Assembly: GCA_007695015.1 (NCBI GenBank)
Contig: REEN01000068.1
Location: 1 to 32,887, forward strand
Direction: 5' to 3'
Length of the DNA: 32,887 nucleotides
From: Marinilabiliales bacterium
GTDB taxonomy: Bacteria > Bacteroidota > Bacteroidia > Bacteroidales > PUMT01
Shown in pieces: positions 9,992 to 29,266 of the stretch. How positions within the stretch are numbered: the first letter of the stretch is position 1; each line of letters begins with the position of its first letter. A program made the translations under genes and the position numbers. Below the pieces are notes generated by a model. That model saw only the letters and a list, made by a program, of their open reading frames with translations, was not told where the DNA came from and did no database searches.

Positions 9992-11521
9992 CTACTCGCC
10001 GAACCTGAGGCGGAGGTTGATGCCTCCCATACCCATGCGTATCTGGCGGCTGCCAAGGTCGCCCAGCGGGTATTTTATGAAAGGCTCTATTATGGTGGTA
10101 TAGTTGCCGCCCGAAATAGTGTAACCGAAGGAGAGGTTCAGCAGCCGTGCCGGGTCGAACCGTGAAAAGGGGCCGTAGCTGGCAGTTACATCTGAGACCA
10201 CCCTTGAACTTAGCTGGCGGTAACTACCGTCAGCCGGTGAGTAATAAGCCTGTTCAACATACGCGATCTCCTCTCCGGTTATTTTCTGCTGAAGATATAG
10301 CAGTGATGAGAAGCCTGCCTCAACGTACATTTGCCTTCGGGTGGTTTCCATGAGCTGGTACTGGATGTTTACAGGGATGTCAACGGCCATGATCTCGAAG
10401 GCCTGGTTGCTGTATGATCTATGAAGCTGATAGCCTGCATCTTCCGGCATGCTGGAGTAGTATTTACTGCTACTCCGGCTTCGTAGCGGCATATTGTCGA
10501 CCTCGAACTGCTGGTAGGCCAGCAGAAGTCCCGATTTAACCGTGAATTGCCGGGAGAGCCTGTACTCGGAACTTGCGCCTGCCGAAAAACCCATGCCGCT
10601 GGCCAGTTGCTGTTCGGCGTAAGTGAGCATGGGGCCTGCAGCGACTCCCCACCTTAATGCCCTGTGGCCGGCAGGTTCATCCACGGGTGTCCCGTAAAGG
10701 GGCATCTCCTGAAATAGTTGCCCGGCATCGGCAATAACCGGGACGTCTGGCTCATGGCGCAGACTGTCAACGGGGGGTTCGCGGCCGGGGTCCTCTGTCG
10801 CAACGGTAGCGGCTTCTGCGAGGGCAGAGGGTATGACGGCACCGGTACGCTCTGCTGCAGCAACCGGGACAGTTGGTGTTATGACGGTGGCGGTGTCATC
10901 AGAGAGGGCCGGGGGCATTGTAACTGCATGAGCGGTCCGGGGTTCCGGGGTGCCGGGAGTATGATCATCAGGAATTCCTGGTGGGATTATAACGGCCTGG
11001 GCGGTCCTGGGTTCCGGGGTGCCGGGAACGGCATCGGGGGTGTCGCGGTCCGGGACTCCTGCCGCGATGGTACCGGGATCTGCCATGGCGGGATCAGGCG
11101 GGGTGTCTGCCAGAGAAGATGCGGCTTGTTCATGAATGGGTTCCGCAGAAGGGGGTGTATCAGGAGCGACAGCAGAGGGGGCGCCTGCCTCAGCTGGCTC
11201 AGCAGGGGCGTCTGCCAGCGCCTCATGTTCTGCAGGGGCAGGGGAGGTTGCCGCGGCGTCTTCTTCCGCGAAAGCGGTATCTGAAACAGTTTTCTCAGCG
11301 ATCTGATCTTTTTCAGGCAGCATCAGAAGCACTGAAAAGGAGATGATCAGCAGCAGGGCGGCGGCAATACGGAGCAGCCAGGGCATGAGCCGCCTTGTTG
11401 ACGACGCATTCTGCCCGAGCGTGGACTGCATTGCTTCCCAGGCAGCGGGGTCGACGGGTTCGTCATGCTTGTCGAAGACCTCGCGCACCCTGTCGGCAAA
11501 TCTTTCATCAAACGGCTTCAT
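9992..11521 (-). CDS. Dual-membrane anti-sigma factor: cytoplasmic anti-sigma segment + TM + Pro/Ala linker + outer-membrane beta-barrel
   Basis: 509 residues from the ATG at 11521; the open frame continues upstream but that part lies inside the sigma gene and looks non-coding. Residues 1-45 (MKPFDERFADRVREVFDKHD, then EPVDPAAWEAMQ) are the short cytoplasmic helical segment seen in Bacteroidota anti-sigma proteins. Residues 46-68 are one hydrophobic membrane helix. Residues about 90-285 are a Pro/Ala/Glu-rich linker with a 23-residue repeat (166-188, 189-211). Residues about 288-509 are an outer-membrane beta-barrel of PorT/OmpW type ending in INLRLRFGE. One chain would thus span both membranes. 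It overlaps the ECF sigma gene by 14 nt. The architecture matches the dual membrane-spanning anti-sigma (Dma) proteins described in Bacteroides thetaiotaomicron, linked there to vesiculation; the regulon here is unknown. Confidence 0.82.
   Translation of the reverse strand: MKPFDERFADRVREVFDKHDEPVDPAAWEAMQSTLGQNASSTRRLMPWLLRIAAALLLIISFSVLLMLPEKDQIAEKTVSDTAFAEEDAAATSPAPAEHEALADAPAEPAEAGAPSAVAPDTPPSAEPIHEQAASSLADTPPDPAMADPGTIAAGVPDRDTPDAVPGTPEPRTAQAVIIPPGIPDDHTPGTPEPRTAHAVTMPPALSDDTATVITPTVPVAAAERTGAVIPSALAEAATVATEDPGREPPVDSLRHEPDVPVIADAGQLFQEMPLYGTPVDEPAGHRALRWGVAAGPMLTYAEQQLASGMGFSAGASSEYRLSRQFTVKSGLLLAYQQFEVDNMPLRSRSSSKYYSSMPEDAGYQLHRSYSNQAFEIMAVDIPVNIQYQLMETTRRQMYVEAGFSSLLYLQQKITGEEIAYVEQAYYSPADGSYRQLSSRVVSDVTASYGPFSRFDPARLLNLSFGYTISGGNYTTIIEPFIKYPLGDLGSRQIRMGMGGINLRLRFGE
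10889..11026 (-). repeat. 69-bp in-frame repeat coding the anti-sigma linker
   Basis: Two 69-bp units encode PGTPEPRTAQAV... and PGTPEPRTAHAV... (residues 166-188 and 189-211). The block GGTTCCGGGGTGCCGGGA recurs exactly 69 bp apart on the plus strand. Being a multiple of three, changes in copy number would alter linker length without breaking the frame. Confidence 0.85.
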
Positions 11522-12092
11522 GGCGGTTGTCTTTGATGTTTTTATTGTACAGTGCCCTGATAAGCGCTTTGGCCCTGCTAAGGGCCGACCGGGAAGTTCC
11601 GGGCGATATGCCCAGCATCCCGGCAATCTCATCATGGTTGTATCCCTCTACCTCGTAAAGGTTGAATATCATCCTGTAATTACCGGGCAGCCTGTCGAAC
11701 AGCGCAAGTATCGCTTCGGCATCGGCCGTTGTTTCTGAGCCGGGCAGATCGGCGGTATTGTGAACCTGGTCAATTTCTTCGGCGGTGTCGTAAGCGTTTA
11801 TCCTGAGGCGGTTCTGCCGGTTTGCCCTGTGGTGGTCGATTGCCGTGTTGACAAGGATCTTCCTGAACCAGCTCCTGAATGGTTTGCTGTCGTCGTACAC
11901 ACCTATGTTGTTGTAAACTTTCATAAACCCGTCGTTCAGAATTTCGATGGCATCTTCCCGGCTGTATGAGTACCGCAGGCATACCGACATGCCGAAGCCG
12001 AAATAAAGTCTGTAAAGCAATTCCTGGAAGCGCCGCTTCCCGCGCCTGCATCCCTGTATTATCTCCTGCTCCGTATATTGCCTGCTGGTCAA
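11508..12092 (-). CDS. ECF-type RNA polymerase sigma factor
   Basis: 194 residues. Region 2 covers about 20-90 (FQELLYRLYFGFGMSVCLRY, EDAIEILNDGFMKVYNNI, FRSWFRKILVNTAIDHHR). Region 4 covers about 125-180 (LPGNYRMIFNLYEVEGYNHDEIAGMLGISPGTSRSALSRAK), with the helix-turn-helix for the -35 element. Sigma-70 region 3 is absent, as in group IV sigma factors. The start is TTG at 12092: a TAA lies in frame four codons upstream and the next ATG would remove part of region 2. It overlaps the downstream anti-sigma/barrel gene by 14 nt, so it is most likely held at the membrane by that protein and released by an envelope signal. Its own promoter was not recognised in the 99-bp upstream gap. Confidence 0.92.
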   Translation of the reverse strand: MTSRQYTEQEIIQGCRRGKRRFQELLYRLYFGFGMSVCLRYSYSREDAIEILNDGFMKVYNNIGVYDDSKPFRSWFRKILVNTAIDHHRANRQNRLRINAYDTAEEIDQVHNTADLPGSETTADAEAILALFDRLPGNYRMIFNLYEVEGYNHDEIAGMLGISPGTSRSALSRAKALIRALYNKNIKDNRHEAV

Positions 12093-12191
12093 CTCTGCAG
12101 TTTATTGGTGTTATGACACATCCTTTTATACTGCAATATACTCAGTTTTATTATTCAGAATCACCTTAAATAATTATTTGCCAGTGTTTCA

Positions 12192-13241
12192 TTACGGCAC
12201 GATAACCGGAAATACATCGGAGCGGGGATAATCAGACAGCGATGTCTGGTTATTCCCGTTTATTGTCATGTAATAAATATTATTGATGTAACTGTCTCTT
12301 CTCGATGTAAAAACAATGAACCTGCCGTCACGGGTTACAACCGGACTTTCATCCCTTGTGCCGCTGTCGGTCAGCCTTTTCTTGTTTTTCCCGTTTCTGT
12401 TCATGATATATACATCGGGCAATTCGTTTTCCCAGGAAACATACACTATTCTTGTTCCGTCAGGTGTCCAGACAGGGTCGTGGTTGCCGTCGGGAGGCCA
12501 GCCCGGATATACCCGGGGAGAGACCGACGAGGTCAACTGGGTTACATTTTCACCTGTTATATCTGCCGTGAAGATCTGCCGGCTTCGGTCTTTACCGGTA
12601 GAATAGTAGGCAATGGTCTTCCCGTCGGGCGAAAGGACAGGGCAGCAGCCGCTGTCGATCAGCTTTCTTTTTCCTGAACCATCGGTATTCATAATGTATA
12701 TGCTTCTGGTAGAATAATCTTCTCCCCTTTTGCCAAAGATTATCCTGTTATCATGTGTGAATATCCCGCAGGATTTTTTTCCGCTGTAAGTAAGGATATT
12801 CCTGGCCCCGGTCACCATATCATATGTTACGGCATCTCCTTCTTTGAAGTACAGGATCCTGTTGTCGTCGTGCGACCAGGAGAGGGAACCAATTTGGCCC
12901 TCTGTCCCGTCAATCAGCCTGAGGTCTGACCCGTCAGCATTTATTGCATAAAGCTCATTACCCTTGTGAGTGAACAGAACTGTGCTTCCCCAGTTGGAGA
13001 TCACAGGTTTCCTGCAGCCTGTAGACAGTCCCGACAGCCTTGTCTGCCGGGATCCGTCATTATTCATACTGTAGAGGTGCCACGCAGCGCTGTTATCTTC
13101 CCGGCGGGATATAAACAACACCTGTGATGCACTGGATGAAAAGCCCCAGTGCTGGTCATCCATAACAATGTCATCAGCTTTATCACAGCCGGAGGTTGCA
13201 AAAGAAACAAGCAATATAAACAGTGATATGAACCTTTTCAT
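12192..13241 (-). CDS. TolB-like beta-propeller lipoprotein
   Basis: 349 residues. The N-terminus MKRFISLFILLVSFATSGC is a lipoprotein signal with the lipidated cysteine at C19. The rest is built of PD40/WD40-like repeats of the TolB type, with recurring blocks such as HLYSMNNDGSRQTRLS, SPDGKTIAYYSTG, IFTADITGENVTQLT, VWTPDGTRIVYVSWE and IYYMTINGNNQTSLSDYP. This makes a six-bladed propeller probable. TolB-type propellers bind proteins or glycans at the cell envelope, but this one lacks the TolB N-terminal domain, so it is not TolB itself. It follows the LVIVD lipoprotein gene by 8 nt, forming an operon; the ECF sigma gene lies 99 bp downstream on the same strand and could be co-transcribed. 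Confidence 0.85.
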   Translation of the reverse strand: MKRFISLFILLVSFATSGCDKADDIVMDDQHWGFSSSASQVLFISRREDNSAAWHLYSMNNDGSRQTRLSGLSTGCRKPVISNWGSTVLFTHKGNELYAINADGSDLRLIDGTEGQIGSLSWSHDDNRILYFKEGDAVTYDMVTGARNILTYSGKKSCGIFTHDNRIIFGKRGEDYSTRSIYIMNTDGSGKRKLIDSGCCPVLSPDGKTIAYYSTGKDRSRQIFTADITGENVTQLTSSVSPRVYPGWPPDGNHDPVWTPDGTRIVYVSWENELPDVYIMNRNGKNKKRLTDSGTRDESPVVTRDGRFIVFTSRRDSYINNIYYMTINGNNQTSLSDYPRSDVFPVIVP

Positions 13242-13249
13242 ATTGGGTT

Positions 13250-14530
13250 TTATTTTTCCCCTGTTACCCTTATGTGACTGAGCAGCCTGATGTCGCCCAG
13301 GTCTGAGTAGTCGTACTGGAAGAGTCCGTCATGCCCTATCATCATAAGAACGTTTCCGAGAGGGATAACGTCATAGGTGTCTATGTCGGGGAAGTGTGCT
13401 ATCATATTTGACGAGATGGCCAGGGGATTGGTGGCGTCATATATTTTAAGTCCGTCAGCCCCGTCGCAGATGAACAGCACCGGGTGGTCAATCCCGAGTC
13501 CGTGCGGGTTGAACATCGGGTATGACTTCAGCAGCCTTGGGTTCTTTATGTCGATAATGTCTATCACATCGAGCTGGTTGGCGGTTCCTCCGCAGTTGTT
13601 GCCCGACCGCAGTGTTACATAGGCTATGTCGTTGGCAACGACAACGGGGTCGCATGAATTGACATGGTCGAAGTCGGATACGAATTCGGGCTTTGCAGGG
13701 TTCGCGAGGCTGTAGATGAGCATGCCGGTGGTGGTGCCTATGAACAGGTGCTCATCATGCCTGAAGAGCGTCTCCATGTTTCGCCAGGTGGAGATGCTGT
13801 CAACGGCCGTTATGCCTTCAGGCACTGAAATGTCGAGTGTCTTGAGCATAAAAGGATTCGCGACGGAATAAAGGTAATGCTCATGCAGCATGAACCGTGC
13901 CATGCTGCCGGCAACACCCGCCACCGGTGGACCTGAACTCTGGAGGGCCATATCGGCGCTTGCCCTGAACATCCATGGTCCGCCCCATCCCCATGAGTTC
14001 GTTGGAAATCGCTCGGTGACTATCTTTGTCTGCCACCCTACCACAACCCCCAGCTCAGGATCGTATCCCGAAATGGGCCTTGGTTGCTCTATAGGGGGCA
14101 ATGTATTCGGGAAGGCATTTTCAAGGCGGCCGGCCTCGACCGGATCAAAGATGTCGCTTATGTCGATCGCCACCAGGTCAATAAAACTGTCGGCAAACAG
14201 TATGTTTCCCCTTATGGCTATGTCAACGTTGCCAGGGATCTCATAAAAGGTGAGCGGTACGGGATTCGATGGGTCTGCATTGTTAATGACGTGAATTCCC
14301 TCGTTGACCTCGTTAATAAAGAGCAGGTTATCCTTGAAATAGATCTTGCCGGGGTATTCGATGCCGCGGGTTTCGGCCGATTTGACGGCCGACCTGAATT
14401 CCTGGAAGCTCATGTATATGGGCACATTGGCCTCGAAGGTGTAGGTCTCGTATTCTTTTTTTGTACATGCCTGGTAGATGGCCGGGATGGCCAGCAGGGC
14501 AAACAGCAGCAGCCGTACGTTCTTTTTCAT
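13250..14530 (-). CDS. LVIVD-repeat beta-propeller lipoprotein
   Basis: 426 residues from the ATG at 14530, which gives the signal MKKNVRLLLFALLAIPAIYQAC with lipidated C22; an upstream ATG at 14575 would put 15 polar residues before the signal. Repeats of the LVIVD type are visible: INEVNEGIHVINNADPSNPV, ADSFIDLVAIDISDIFDPVE, IGTTTGMLIYSLANPAKPEF, LDVIDIIDIKNPRLLKSYP and CDGADGLKIYDATNPLA. They are expected to fold as a beta-propeller on the cell surface or in the periplasm. No enzymatic motif is seen; a binding or scaffold role is likely. It is the first gene of an operon with the TolB-like lipoprotein. Confidence 0.86.
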   Translation of the reverse strand: MKKNVRLLLFALLAIPAIYQACTKKEYETYTFEANVPIYMSFQEFRSAVKSAETRGIEYPGKIYFKDNLLFINEVNEGIHVINNADPSNPVPLTFYEIPGNVDIAIRGNILFADSFIDLVAIDISDIFDPVEAGRLENAFPNTLPPIEQPRPISGYDPELGVVVGWQTKIVTERFPTNSWGWGGPWMFRASADMALQSSGPPVAGVAGSMARFMLHEHYLYSVANPFMLKTLDISVPEGITAVDSISTWRNMETLFRHDEHLFIGTTTGMLIYSLANPAKPEFVSDFDHVNSCDPVVVANDIAYVTLRSGNNCGGTANQLDVIDIIDIKNPRLLKSYPMFNPHGLGIDHPVLFICDGADGLKIYDATNPLAISSNMIAHFPDIDTYDVIPLGNVLMMIGHDGLFQYDYSDLGDIRLLSHIRVTGEK

Positions 14531-14662
14531 TTTCGGGCAGGGGTTAGGTTTGACAAAGTTTTCTCTTATACCCAATACGTAAGAACAGGTGTTACTGCTG
14601 CAACAACGTTAATTATTTTTGGTAATTTACTCCGGGTGAACTATTTTTGTGTTGGCTTAAGA

Positions 14663-25807: not shown

Positions 25808-28800
25808 TCACTCCCAGTCATCTTCGTCAAAGGTGGCATCATCAGTTACCCGGGGCAGGTAAATATTGACCCTGGTACCTGCCGGTGTCTCTTCGCCGGA
25901 GTGCAGGTCGGCTATCTCAACCCTGAAATCGTTGAAACCCGGGTCATTCATGAGATGCAGGCGCCGGCTGGTAATGTCAAGTCCTATGCTCCTGTGCTTG
26001 TCTTTGTTGCCGGTATTTATTTCTGACGACTTTTTGCGGCCCACTCCATTGTCTTCAACCGTACATTTGATCAGGTTATCTGCTGTTGCCGAAAATACAA
26101 CAGTTATAAATCCATTTTTTTTCAGGTGCAGCATCCCGTGCAGAACCGCATTTTCAACAAACGGTTGTATCATCATCGGGGGTATCCGGTATTTGTGGCT
26201 TTCCTTTATGGGGCCAGCCGTGATCTTATAATCGAAACTGTCCTCAAACCTCATCTTCTCCAGGTTGAGATAGTTCTCGATGAAAGCGATCTCCTCTTTT
26301 ATGCTTACGGAAGATCTTGACGCAAACTCCATGGTCTGCCTGATAAGCTTTGAGAAATATGATATGAACAATAATGCTGAGTCTTTTTCCTTGTTCAGGA
26401 TGTAATACTGTATTGAGTTTATGGCATTGAAAGTAAAGTGGGGGTTCATCTGGGCCTGCAGGGCTCTTATCCTTAGCTCAGAAATTTCCCGTTCCTGGTT
26501 TAGTTTCAGTCCGGCATGTTTTTTGACAAATCTTATTCTTAAGATCAGGATGAGCCAGAAAAGCCCAAGCAGCGCTGTTCCTGCAAGGGTATAGAACCAC
26601 CATGTCTGCCACCAGGGTGGCAATATCCGGAAACCGAAGTGAGTTGTTCCCCTGCTTTTACTGTTCTGTGCCAGTTGTGCCTCGACTTTAAGCATATACT
26701 TTCCCGGCCGGAGATTTGGGAATATTACATGCCTGTTGTCGTCAAAATTTGACCACTGGTCATTAAGTCCGGTCAGCCGGTAACGGTAAAGGGTGTTCTG
26801 CGCATCTCCGATGTTGATTGTGCTGAAATGGAAACCCAGGTTGTTGGAGCTATGCTTCAGCCTCAGATTACCGGCCGGAACACCGGTCCAGTTGTCAGCC
26901 GGGCCCCTGATATGCCAGTCGGTTTCACCATAATCAATATCAATACGGTCGATAATGACATCTCTTGGCGAAGGTTTAAGTCCGAATGCCTTGTCAGTGT
27001 CAATTCTGGCCAGTAGTCCCCTTCCCCCCAGCCATATATAGCCGTTGCTGCATACAGATGAGCTTGTTACCGCCGGATCAAGCACACCGTGATCCATGCC
27101 GAAAAACCCTGCATTGACGGCATTCTCCTGTTCGTCGATCCCGGGCCTGATACGGTTAATGCCCCTGTTGGTTCCCGCCCAGATATAACCCCGGCCATCT
27201 GCCTCGATCCAGAAGATCCGCGTTCCGGTTATGTTTCCTTGAGGACTGATATCATGCAGTATATGGATGGTATCATCTTCATGCCTCAGGACCTGGATCC
27301 TGCCGTTGCTGCTGCCTGCCAGTATGTTTCCGTTACTGCAGGTGCTTAACGCCGTTACCGGGGTGATCAGTCCGCCGTTATCATTGCTCAGGAAGGAAAC
27401 ATCATTGCCACTGATCAGGATCAGGCCATGGTTGCGGCACCCGAGGAGAAGGTTCCCGTTTGACACAATCATGCTTGCAATATTTACATTTTCAGGTATC
27501 CTGGTAACATGAACCGGAAGTGATGGTGATTCAGGCCGGTATGAATAAAGGGTTGATGTGTAAGCTGCAAGCAGCAGGCTGTCATCCTGAACTAAGACAT
27601 TACCAGTACCTGGATAACGGACATTGAAATAGAAGATGTCGCCGGTTTCATCTACCCTGAAGTAGCCTGCATTGGTTGAGATCCAGAGGCTGTTGTCACT
27701 TCCCGGTGCAAGTCCCAGTAACGGATTTATACAGCGGGCCTTCAGGTATTCATATTCAGCGGGACTGTAAAACGCTCCGTCAGGGAAAATCAGCTTCTCG
27801 CCGTTTTGGATTTCATAATAAGGGTTCCTGAATTTATATGCCCCTGATAACCGGAGATAAGCGTATTTTTTGTAAGAGCCTTCAGGATCGAGCATATATG
27901 AATACCGGGAAGGGAACTCTTCTTCCAGGTATTCGCGATAAATATTCTCAAGGTTCGTTTTGTCATACATTGTGAATCCTTTGCCCGGTTCCCTGAACCA
28001 AAGGTTCTGGTCGTCAAGTATCCAGAAGGCCCCGTCATCAGTAGAGGCAAATGACCGTACGGTGAGATCACCCGGGGGAGGCAGCCCTGCTGCTCCGTTC
28101 TCAATTACAGGCGGAAAAAGAATAAACAGTCCCTGTCGCCTGTCTGATATGACAATTAAATTGTCAGACTGATCGTAAATTACCCGGCTGACCGACTCTG
28201 CAGTCAGTCCGTACATTTTGTTCAGTGACCGCAGTGAGTCGCCGGTTATCATGTAGGCCCCTCCCTGATCGCTAAAAGGCGTGCTTATGGTGGCGAGGTA
28301 TATATTACCCGCCTGGTCTTCGGCAATATCCATAACATCGGCCAGGGGACCATATGCACCGGTTCCTTCAGGCCCCGTTCTCATAATGACCTCTCTGTTT
28401 GCAGGCGACCAGATCGTGTCGCCCGCAACGGTGATCCCGGCATGTGAGAGCCTGGTGTAGCCATGGTAGAACGGTACATGGACCAGGGGCTCATCCCTGC
28501 CGGGATAGTACCTGTACAAGCCGTTGGCTGCCGTGATCACGTAAACAAAAGACCCTGCCTCGAGAAAGCTGAGAATTATAACCCCTGTACCAGTATCGGG
28601 GTGCAATGATCCATAGGCCTTGTACTCTCCGTTGCTTAACGTTGCAAACCCATTGCTGGTTCCGATAAACAGCATGTCCCTGTCCGCCATATAGCTGAAC
28701 CTTGTAATCAGATTGCCCGGCAGAGAATCGTAAGGTATTACAGTTTTAAAATTCCTGCCGTCAAAAGCTACAATCCCCTCACCCTGAATTCCCAGCCACA

Positions 28801-29161
28801 GGTTGCCATCTTTGTTTTCTGCTACAGCTTTGACCGTAAGGCCCGGTAATCCGTTCTCCAGGCCATAGGTTTTGATCTGGTTGCCGTACCACCTGGCCAG
28901 ACCGGCATCGGTCCCGATCCAGTAAAAACCCCGCGAGTCTCTTATAATATCATGTATAGAGTTACTCGGCAGGCCTGCATTCATGTCTATGTGACTGAAT
29001 GAATATTGCTGAGCCGGCAACCTGCCGGGGAAGAGTGAGAGGATAGCTGCCAGCCATAGCAGGGTGAACGGCAGGCCACATTTGTTGAGCCTTTTGACCG
29101 GTTCCAGGTTTGCCGGTGTTGACAGCTCGTTTGGGTTTTTTAGACTGATAGGCCCTGCCAT
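25808..29161 (-). CDS. Propeller sensor histidine kinase, LytS type (Reg_prop + Y_Y_Y + His_kinase)
   Basis: About 1117 residues from the ATG at 29161. The frame also has an ATG at 29248, but that 29-codon stretch lies over a tandem repeat and is probably untranslated. After a signal segment (LLWLAAILSLFPGRLPAQ) come two-component-regulator propeller repeats such as GFYWIGTDAGLARW, GNLWLGIQGEGIVAFD and GYIWAGTNRGINRI. A Y_Y_Y domain follows (LYRYRLTGLNDQWSNF, LRPGKYMLKVEA), one membrane helix (about 852-874), and a LytS-type kinase core with QMNPHFTFNAINSIQYYI (H908) and an ATPase with ENAVLHG and VEDNGVGRKK. The propeller senses an extracytoplasmic ligand; H908 should phosphorylate the LytTR regulator encoded just upstream. 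Reg_prop kinases often sense glycans, but no polysaccharide locus is adjacent here. Confidence 0.9.
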   Translation of the reverse strand: MAGPISLKNPNELSTPANLEPVKRLNKCGLPFTLLWLAAILSLFPGRLPAQQYSFSHIDMNAGLPSNSIHDIIRDSRGFYWIGTDAGLARWYGNQIKTYGLENGLPGLTVKAVAENKDGNLWLGIQGEGIVAFDGRNFKTVIPYDSLPGNLITRFSYMADRDMLFIGTSNGFATLSNGEYKAYGSLHPDTGTGVIILSFLEAGSFVYVITAANGLYRYYPGRDEPLVHVPFYHGYTRLSHAGITVAGDTIWSPANREVIMRTGPEGTGAYGPLADVMDIAEDQAGNIYLATISTPFSDQGGAYMITGDSLRSLNKMYGLTAESVSRVIYDQSDNLIVISDRRQGLFILFPPVIENGAAGLPPPGDLTVRSFASTDDGAFWILDDQNLWFREPGKGFTMYDKTNLENIYREYLEEEFPSRYSYMLDPEGSYKKYAYLRLSGAYKFRNPYYEIQNGEKLIFPDGAFYSPAEYEYLKARCINPLLGLAPGSDNSLWISTNAGYFRVDETGDIFYFNVRYPGTGNVLVQDDSLLLAAYTSTLYSYRPESPSLPVHVTRIPENVNIASMIVSNGNLLLGCRNHGLILISGNDVSFLSNDNGGLITPVTALSTCSNGNILAGSSNGRIQVLRHEDDTIHILHDISPQGNITGTRIFWIEADGRGYIWAGTNRGINRIRPGIDEQENAVNAGFFGMDHGVLDPAVTSSSVCSNGYIWLGGRGLLARIDTDKAFGLKPSPRDVIIDRIDIDYGETDWHIRGPADNWTGVPAGNLRLKHSSNNLGFHFSTINIGDAQNTLYRYRLTGLNDQWSNFDDNRHVIFPNLRPGKYMLKVEAQLAQNSKSRGTTHFGFRILPPWWQTWWFYTLAGTALLGLFWLILILRIRFVKKHAGLKLNQEREISELRIRALQAQMNPHFTFNAINSIQYYILNKEKDSALLFISYFSKLIRQTMEFASRSSVSIKEEIAFIENYLNLEKMRFEDSFDYKITAGPIKESHKYRIPPMMIQPFVENAVLHGMLHLKKNGFITVVFSATADNLIKCTVEDNGVGRKKSSEINTGNKDKHRSIGLDITSRRLHLMNDPGFNDFRVEIADLHSGEETPAGTRVNIYLPRVTDDATFDEDDWE

Positions 29162-29200
29162 TATAAAAACATCTTTGAAAAATATTAGTGGCAGTCCGGT

Positions 29201-29247
29201 TGATACCTGCCGCCATCCGTTCATGATACCTGCCCGACATCCGTTCA
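29201..29247. repeat. 23/24-bp tandem repeat between lytTR and kinase genes
   Basis: Two units beginning TGATACCTGCC and containing CATCCGTTCA at 29201-29223 and 29224-29247 (one base longer), followed by a third TGATACG start. It overlaps the long alternative N-terminus of the kinase frame. Confidence 0.85.
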
Positions 29248-29266
29248 TGATACGCGCCGGCTCCCT

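Follow-up and report, generated by a model that had tools for sequence, protein, structure and literature searches.

A window of 32,887 nucleotides from a Marinilabiliales bacterium (contig REEN01000068.1 of assembly GCA_007695015.1) carries on its reverse strand a gene for an extracytoplasmic function (ECF) sigma factor and, overlapping its end, a gene for a single-chain protein with a short segment at its N-terminus, a single membrane helix, a long disordered linker and a C-terminal β-barrel. The pair is quite likely to be a sigma/anti-sigma switch of the dual membrane-spanning type represented by Dma and Reo, in which one polypeptide would connect the outer membrane to a sigma factor held in the cytoplasm. 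The computational evidence lies in the layout of the genes and protein, the predicted barrel fold, the recurrence of the pairing, the conservation of particular residues and a minimum length of the tether; from these we infer the binding of the sigma factor, the topology in the cell, the signal at the barrel and the release of the sigma factor. An initial annotation, made from the letters of this stretch, had proposed an ECF sigma factor with a one-chain anti-sigma protein of the Dma type, and the layout, the predicted fold, the recurrent pairing and the conserved motifs all support it. The anatomy that it outlined is also found, in the form of a cytoplasmic part of about 46 residues, a single membrane helix, a Pro/Ala-rich linker of 219 residues and a predicted C-terminal barrel.

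The sigma factor is readily recognised by family models. It scores 82 bits against the ECF superfamily model TIGR02937 (cut-off 42.9; E 3e-23) and is also above the cut-off for Sigma70_r4_2 (E 3e-15) and Sigma70_r2 (E 1e-10), whilst the sigma alignment finds matches at E of 1e-20 or better in 289 of the 295 genomes of the class. An earlier start is impossible because an in-frame TAA (12104-12102) lies four codons 5' of the TTG, with no start codon between the two. In two congeneric genomes (G004 and G007) the orthologues of the downstream gene share the overlap and the frame, and their products likewise begin with MKPFDE. Since these orthologues retain the frame, and the insertions and deletions in the linker are in-frame, the 509-residue frame is taken to be coding. 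The mechanically called open reading frame (ORF) of 547 residues begins 38 codons earlier, within the sigma gene, and was set aside in favour of the ATG start.

The N-terminal part of the anti-sigma protein was studied with an AlphaFold2 (AF2) model built from 19 sequences. The model has a long helix at residues 39-65 and the hydropathy maximum falls at about residues 49-68; the linker, with a peak 19-residue hydropathy of 0.98, contains no second membrane-like stretch. The cytoplasmic segment, here called the clamp, is 80-87% identical among the window's genome (G000), G004 and G007, and its tryptophan W28 is invariant across the 19-row family alignment. Residues 1-46 presumably bind the cognate sigma factor. 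In PMC7406223 the class I anti-sigma domain (ASDI) is described as a three-helix bundle with a fourth helix, of 101 +/- 33 residues. The clamp, with about 46 residues and two modelled helices, lacks the four cytoplasmic helices of that class and is not assigned to it, although it may work in an ASDI-like manner.

The C-terminal part (about residues 289-507) matches the Pfam family OMP_b-brl_2 (PF13568) with E 5e-9. Strands are modelled throughout 289-507, with a predicted local distance difference test score (pLDDT) mostly above 80 except in a loop at about 341-370. Comparison of residues ~284-509 with solved structures by VIA-align gave Z 16-18 for OmpA, NspA and OprF, or 15-18 when OmpW is included, with superpositions of 2.0 Å over 131 residues for OprF and 3.0 Å over 154 for NspA. 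A search of solved structures by sequence found no significant relative (best E 0.09). DSSP divides the barrel into nine strand segments, which we interpret as eight strands and a surface hairpin (about 415-450), an arrangement that would place both ends of the barrel in the periplasm.

The association of the two genes is recurrent. A protein-family search of 393 genomes of the order gave matches in 58; with weaker matches excluded, 30 loci were examined, four of which hold sequences that the query alignment itself included. At 29 of the 30 an ECF sigma ORF lies on the same strand, the exception (L036) being a barrel-only match. Within the genus, homologues of the window protein turned up in 4 of the 13 genomes searched, several of these genomes being incomplete. 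A second survey began from the sigma factor and took the best 80 of 586 confirmed relatives, and hence is skewed to close ones. With the downstream partner defined as the longest ORF of at least 80 residues starting near the sigma end, a partner was found at 79 of these 80 loci, L071 being the exception. The 19-member protein family and the 79 partners have no near-identical protein in common. The nearest sigma match among the best 80 comes from 'Bacteroidales bacterium isolate CSSed165cm_466' (L039); by name, 78 of the 80 are Bacteroidota, one is simply a 'bacterium' (L095) and one is from the Balneolales (L041). The dual membrane-spanning anti-sigma type is called exclusive to Bacteroidota in PMC13088901. 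At L041, assigned to a Balneolales bacterium of the NCBI phylum Balneolota, the sigma gene is followed by a fused-barrel partner with an N-terminal segment devoid of tryptophan.

Particular residues are conserved along with the pairing. A membrane-helix-like N-terminal hydropathy peak (at least 1.4) is present in 78 of the 79 partners; the remaining partner, L094, reaches 0.60 in the stretch scanned because a long clamp region displaces its helix further in. A tryptophan precedes the peak in 76 partners, the total of 127 tryptophans comparing with 50 expected from overall composition, and the column matching W28 (residue 28 of L039) is the sole one at or above 90% in the 79-row alignment. The membrane segment contains Ala-Ala in 60 of the 79 partners, against a shuffled mean of 30.9 (standard deviation 3.5). 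Distances between sigma factors correlate with those between barrels (r 0.81 over 67 sigma/anti-sigma pairs) and, with the barrel component removed, with those between clamps (partial r 0.24, where 500 permutations gave a maximum of 0.12). This residual correlation weakly suggests contact between sigma factor and clamp, with relatedness still contained in the test.

The linker that joins helix and barrel is 37% Pro+Ala over its 219 residues, and its disorder is read from the confidence of the AF2 model, in which pLDDT is below 50 across nearly all of residues 67-284. Among the three congeners the barrels are 86-92% identical and the linkers only 47-67%, with many in-frame gaps, and because the linkers diverge whilst the barrels are near-identical, the linker is considered to be loosely constrained in both sequence and length. 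Linker length in the 19-member family has a minimum of 106, a median of 143 and a maximum of 219 residues, the last belonging to the window protein. For another 51 relatives with a barrel the estimates run from 122 to 429 (median 165), the boundaries there being taken from an iterated barrel profile with which shuffled controls gave no match. None of the 70 measured linkers is shorter than 106 residues. An extended chain covers about 0.36 nm per residue and the periplasm is 20-30 nm deep, so that 106 residues would reach about 38 nm, further than the periplasm requires. These lengths fit a tether which must be sufficiently long and may be slack, and which has no need to act as a ruler; as an argument from consistency, they also fit a chain that spans the periplasm.

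The outer end of the partner takes several forms among relatives. A fused barrel is the commonest, found by the iterated profile in 51 of the 79 downstream genes; Pfam alone finds OMP_b-brl_2 in 35 and OMP_b-brl in 13, two counts which may overlap. In seven of the 79, six of which also have PKD matches, a CHU_C type IX sorting domain replaces the barrel, and an eighth such form (L037) came from the protein-family search. These partners lie directly after ECF sigma genes and consist of a short stretch at the N-terminus, a single membrane helix, and PKD and/or CHU_C, a composition which makes them candidate inner-membrane-anchored anti-sigma factors with a secretion sorting signal. GldK is above its cut-off in all seven sorting-domain genomes tested, which are those of the seven forms other than L037, and in the window's genome, and in none (0/14) of the control genomes. 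A literature search that took in few subscription journals, judged from titles and the opening lines of abstracts, found no description of an anti-sigma factor bearing a type IX sorting domain.

Short partners (<320 residues) which have no barrel account for 17 of the 79. The next ORF lies within 300 nt in 16 of the 17, and all 10 of these 16 that were given to Pfam match OMP_b-brl_2 above its cut-off. Because short partners precede separate outer-membrane barrel genes in this way, their gene order suggests that barrel and anti-sigma factor act together even when unfused. The four relatives left unclassified (L065, L072, L101 and L112) are long, with neither a barrel profile match nor a sorting domain.

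The clamp varies also in number. Counted with a simple pattern, the Trp motif has six copies in L137 (1190-3199) and in L094, and four copies in L138 and L139; among the 79 partners, 14 have two or three copies, some of the two-copy cases perhaps arising by chance, and five have none. Multiplication of the motif may have taken place more than once, as the units of L094 and L137 differ in sequence. L137-L139 had been considered as natural sigma/anti-sigma fusions of the Dma3 type and were rejected as such, being multiplied clamps. No natural fusion of this kind was recognised among the matches listed, which are mostly of ordinary sigma length, two longer ones (L140 and L141) having been excluded.

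On a sigma tree of a quick kind the forms cluster, with eight changes among the four states, and the well-supported branches force only one origin per form. The window falls within a supported set of 29 tree rows, all labelled fused. That label had been given to 24 relatives before all were tested; seven of them were given to Pfam and then recounted, six matching a barrel family and the seventh, L037, proving to be a sorting-domain form, whilst the labels of the others rest on alignment.

The layout seen here has already been published for Dma and Reo, and the window is a well-supported further candidate member. A more distant likeness is to FecA-FecR-FecI iron-type cell-surface signalling and the TonB-dependent transducers with anti-sigma factors, in which a protein of the outer membrane governs both the anti-sigma factor of the inner membrane and an ECF sigma factor. 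FecA-FecR-FecI employs two proteins and a 22-stranded TonB-dependent barrel, whereas here there is one chain with a small barrel; the relatives with a separate barrel come closer to the FecA layout. RseA-RpoE and DegS of E. coli offer another parallel in their membrane-bound anti-sigma factor, proteolytic release and, as the input proposed here, outer-membrane assembly stress. RseA is not known to have a barrel of its own, whereas here the reporter barrel would belong to the anti-sigma chain.

Dma and Reo were compared with the window protein by their published descriptions and not by sequence. PMC13088901 describes Dma2 of Bacteroides thetaiotaomicron as having an N-terminal sigma-binding domain, a membrane helix, a disordered tether and a barrel, and reports that the sigma factor Das2 is needed for the vesiculation phenotype of a Dma2 deletion. 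Dma1 and Dma2 share with the window protein the same order of parts and an adjoining ECF sigma gene. The Pro/Ala-rich linker with a 23-residue repeat is a point of difference from the Dma proteins, and Dma3 differs in having a sigma domain in the same chain, which the window protein lacks. EcfO-Reo of Phocaeicola vulgatus and Bacteroides fragilis likewise consists of a sigma factor followed by a cytoplasm-to-surface anti-sigma factor with an outer-membrane barrel. According to PMC13114119, Reo extends through all five compartments from cytoplasm to surface, and ecfO-reo show the strongest upregulation of any genes when the toxins BcpT or Bd-A are applied. PMC9308784 reports a 33-fold rise of the sigma gene upon BcpT treatment, and that bacteroidetocin A, which is taken to be Bd-A, binds and inhibits BamA.

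By analogy with these systems, residues 1-46 would keep the sigma factor at the inner membrane, which a single helix would cross; a slack disordered tether would then run through the periplasm to an OmpA-like barrel in the outer membrane. If the barrel were perturbed or remained unassembled, the tether would relay a signal inwards and the sigma factor would be freed, most likely through proteolysis of tether and membrane helix, and could then transcribe its own operon together with a regulon. M50-family proteases elsewhere cut anti-sigma helices, and the window's genome has two matches to this family. Since EcfO-Reo is induced by toxins, and bacteroidetocin A inhibits BamA, barrel assembly or outer-membrane damage is the preferred candidate for the signal over a specific ligand, the sensing of which is also possible.

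A number of observations weigh against this interpretation. The clamp matches no anti-sigma family in Pfam or NCBIfam, and its pLDDT of 63-78 is of moderate confidence. Three of the 79 relatives have no tryptophan before the hydropathy peak, and the counts for pairing, tryptophan and Ala-Ala come from related sequences and do not represent independent events. Sigma distances follow the barrel more closely than the clamp, and binding and common descent are inseparable in them. The sigma factor is assigned at the level of the ECF superfamily, whereas the criterion for a Dma partner is the ECF21 group. As to proteolysis, the M50 matches carry little weight, since every one of the 14 control genomes has them too. 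Finally, among the 16 genes that follow short partners, five have no barrel-profile match and one match is poor (E 0.16, above the Pfam cut-off).

The foremost alternative is that the barrel is a ligand receptor, in which binding of a surface molecule, for example a glycan, to the extracellular loops of the folded barrel produces the signal that frees the sigma factor. This is a real possibility, if clearly the less likely one. Glycan sensing has been hypothesised for Dma2 by its authors (PMC13088901), and the sigma factors of the three one-chain systems in the window's genome sit apart on the sigma tree. The presumed surface loops, at about 346-364 and 415-450, are both long and variable, although such loops are expected to vary even where they have no receptor role. 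No ligand-binding feature was found in the protein, and EcfO-Reo answers toxins that damage the outer membrane, according to PMC9308784 and PMC13114119.

It is unlikely that the linker is constitutively processed, being cut soon after synthesis to give an ordinary inner-membrane anti-sigma factor and a free barrel. The separate-gene versions indicate that covalent continuity is dispensable in some relatives, and the linker is unconstrained in sequence and, being disordered, ought to be exposed to proteases. However, fusion is the commonest state (51/79), and no linker in the 19-member family has a second membrane- or signal-like stretch (peak 19-residue hydropathy 1.21). The minimum of 106 residues, which all 70 measured linkers respect, would moreover be needless in a product destined for cleavage.

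More doubtful still is the idea that the linker is a ruler, its reach across the periplasm being set by the number of repeat copies. The 23-residue repeat on which the initial annotation founded this idea is real: there are two copies, and the self-match at protein level scores 92, whereas 500 shuffled sequences, taken over all offsets, averaged 45 and reached 80 at most. A run of Tandem Repeats Finder (TRF) did not report it. Linkers of this genus do appear to grow by repeats, since in the G007 orthologue the 23-residue period spans a longer stretch of the linker than in the window protein, and the G003 homologue (L119:107-197), with its linker partly on the contig, has a different tandem repeat with a 36-bp unit (2.5 copies, 90% matches). 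Tuning of the periplasmic distance by copy number is nevertheless not supported. Linker lengths of 219 (G000), 197 (G004) and 158 residues (G007), a spread of 61, accompany near-identical barrels, and the G004 orthologue aligns with one copy of the unit and has no significant 23-residue period. That period exceeds all 300 shuffles at offset 23 in only 2 of the 19 family members, namely the window protein and its G007 orthologue. Composition is not conserved either, Pro+Ala ranging from 2 to 37% across the family (2-22% in the other 16 members, whose linkers are mostly Lys/Asn-rich or mixed), and lengths run from 106 to an estimated 429.

That the N-terminal segment is not an anti-sigma factor, and lies next to the sigma gene incidentally, is highly improbable: the failure of anti-sigma family models to match it is outweighed by the pairing at 29/30 and 79/80 loci, the gene overlap, the Trp motif and its tandem multiplication, and by the control of cognate sigma factors by proteins of the same layout (PMC13088901).

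A sigma/anti-sigma switch read through a slack tether may itself be one version of a more widespread arrangement, an extension which is offered tentatively and is on balance somewhat unlikely. The common chassis would consist of one to six Trp-motif clamps, one helix, a slack tether of more than about 100 residues, and an outer end which is a folded probe of an envelope machine, release of the sigma factor reporting how the probe is handled and not the presence of a ligand. It is similarly tentative that the barrel would be a gauge of assembly by the β-barrel assembly machinery (BAM) which carries its own substrate, the sorting domain a gauge of type IX secretion, and the separate barrel a two-piece version of the same device.

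Table 1. Positions of the features discussed, in the window unless a locus is named
Feature	Position	Strand	Details
ECF sigma factor gene	11508-12092	-	194 aa, TTG start; TIGR02937, Sigma70_r2, Sigma70_r4_2
Intergenic region 5' of sigma gene, candidate own promoter	12093-12191	-	conservation against two congeners
One-chain anti-sigma protein gene (putative)	9992-11521	-	509 aa from ATG; 14-nt overlap with sigma gene
Cytoplasmic, presumed sigma-binding segment, residues 1-46	11384-11521	-	AF2 helices 4-18 and 25-37; invariant W28
Single membrane helix, residues 47-67	11321-11383	-	hydropathy and AF2; A53-A54 near cytoplasmic end
Disordered Pro/Ala-rich linker, predicted periplasmic, residues ~68-288	10658-11320	-	pLDDT, composition
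Linker repeat, copy 1 in reading direction	10965-11027	-	63 nt matched of a 69-bp / 23-codon period
Linker repeat, copy 2	10896-10958	-	79% identical to copy 1, 69-bp spacing
C-terminal predicted outer-membrane β-barrel, residues 289-509	9995-10657	-	PF13568 and fold match; read as eight-stranded
One-chain partner in same genome, L129	1513-2868	-	452 aa; OMP_b-brl_2 above cut-off
One-chain partner in same genome, L126	1145-2287	-	381 aa; OMP_b-brl_2 22.7 bits, below cut-off of 27; two Trp motifs
Sorting-domain partners	L061:4559-5824, L091:4542-5855, L093:4603-5892, L099:4549-5619, L037:1489-2763		CHU_C above Pfam cut-off in L061, L091, L093, L099; weaker, below cut-off, in L064, L075, L087
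Split form, separate barrel gene	L059, L063, L069, L081, L092, L100, L105, L106, L113, L114		Pfam; L110 by profile only

The window's genome contains two more one-chain systems (L129 and L126), three in total. These emerged from 17 of its 20 Sigma70_r2 loci, the window included, three others with frames of 287-289 residues having been excluded; L123 had no match in Pfam, and the remaining 13 loci were judged by length and sequence. L132, on contig 17, holds two sigma/membrane-protein pairs about 6 kb apart, with their sigma ORFs at 924 and 7040; the two membrane proteins look nearly identical over the parts compared.

The region upstream of the sigma gene is itself conserved. Over the ~100 nt 5' of the sigma start, 90 of 101-102 alignment columns are identical to each of the two congeners, which exceeds the 78-81% identity at third codon positions of the sigma gene in the same comparison, and a block at about 12126-12148 has the same letters in all three congeneric genomes. 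This intergenic region is a candidate promoter of the sigma gene, its conservation being what a promoter would lead one to expect. A search of the genome with the conserved block, allowing up to three mismatches, found its own site only and no regulon sites.

Further 5', at 12192-14575 on the reverse strand, lie genes for a PD40/TolB-like propeller protein and for one that matches LVIVD weakly, below the cut-off. The propeller gene is kept 5' of the pair in G004; in G007 only about 35 nt of its end remain, by eye, and the neighbourhood has therefore been rearranged in that genome. Elsewhere in the window (25808-29248, reverse strand) a protein of 1146 residues with Reg_prop propeller, Y_Y_Y and His_kinase matches is a regulator of the sensor-kinase type, separate from the pair.

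The pair adds a candidate to a type of regulator that, among the studies found, has been examined in few gut species. It brings with it rules that can be tested, namely a tether with a minimum and no fixed length, an invariant tryptophan in the clamp and a frequent Ala-Ala in the helix. The exchangeable outer end and the multiplied clamp seen in relatives are a more interesting lead than the window alone, and domain swaps between such proteins would make the question of how signals pass from the outer membrane to the cytoplasm a testable one.

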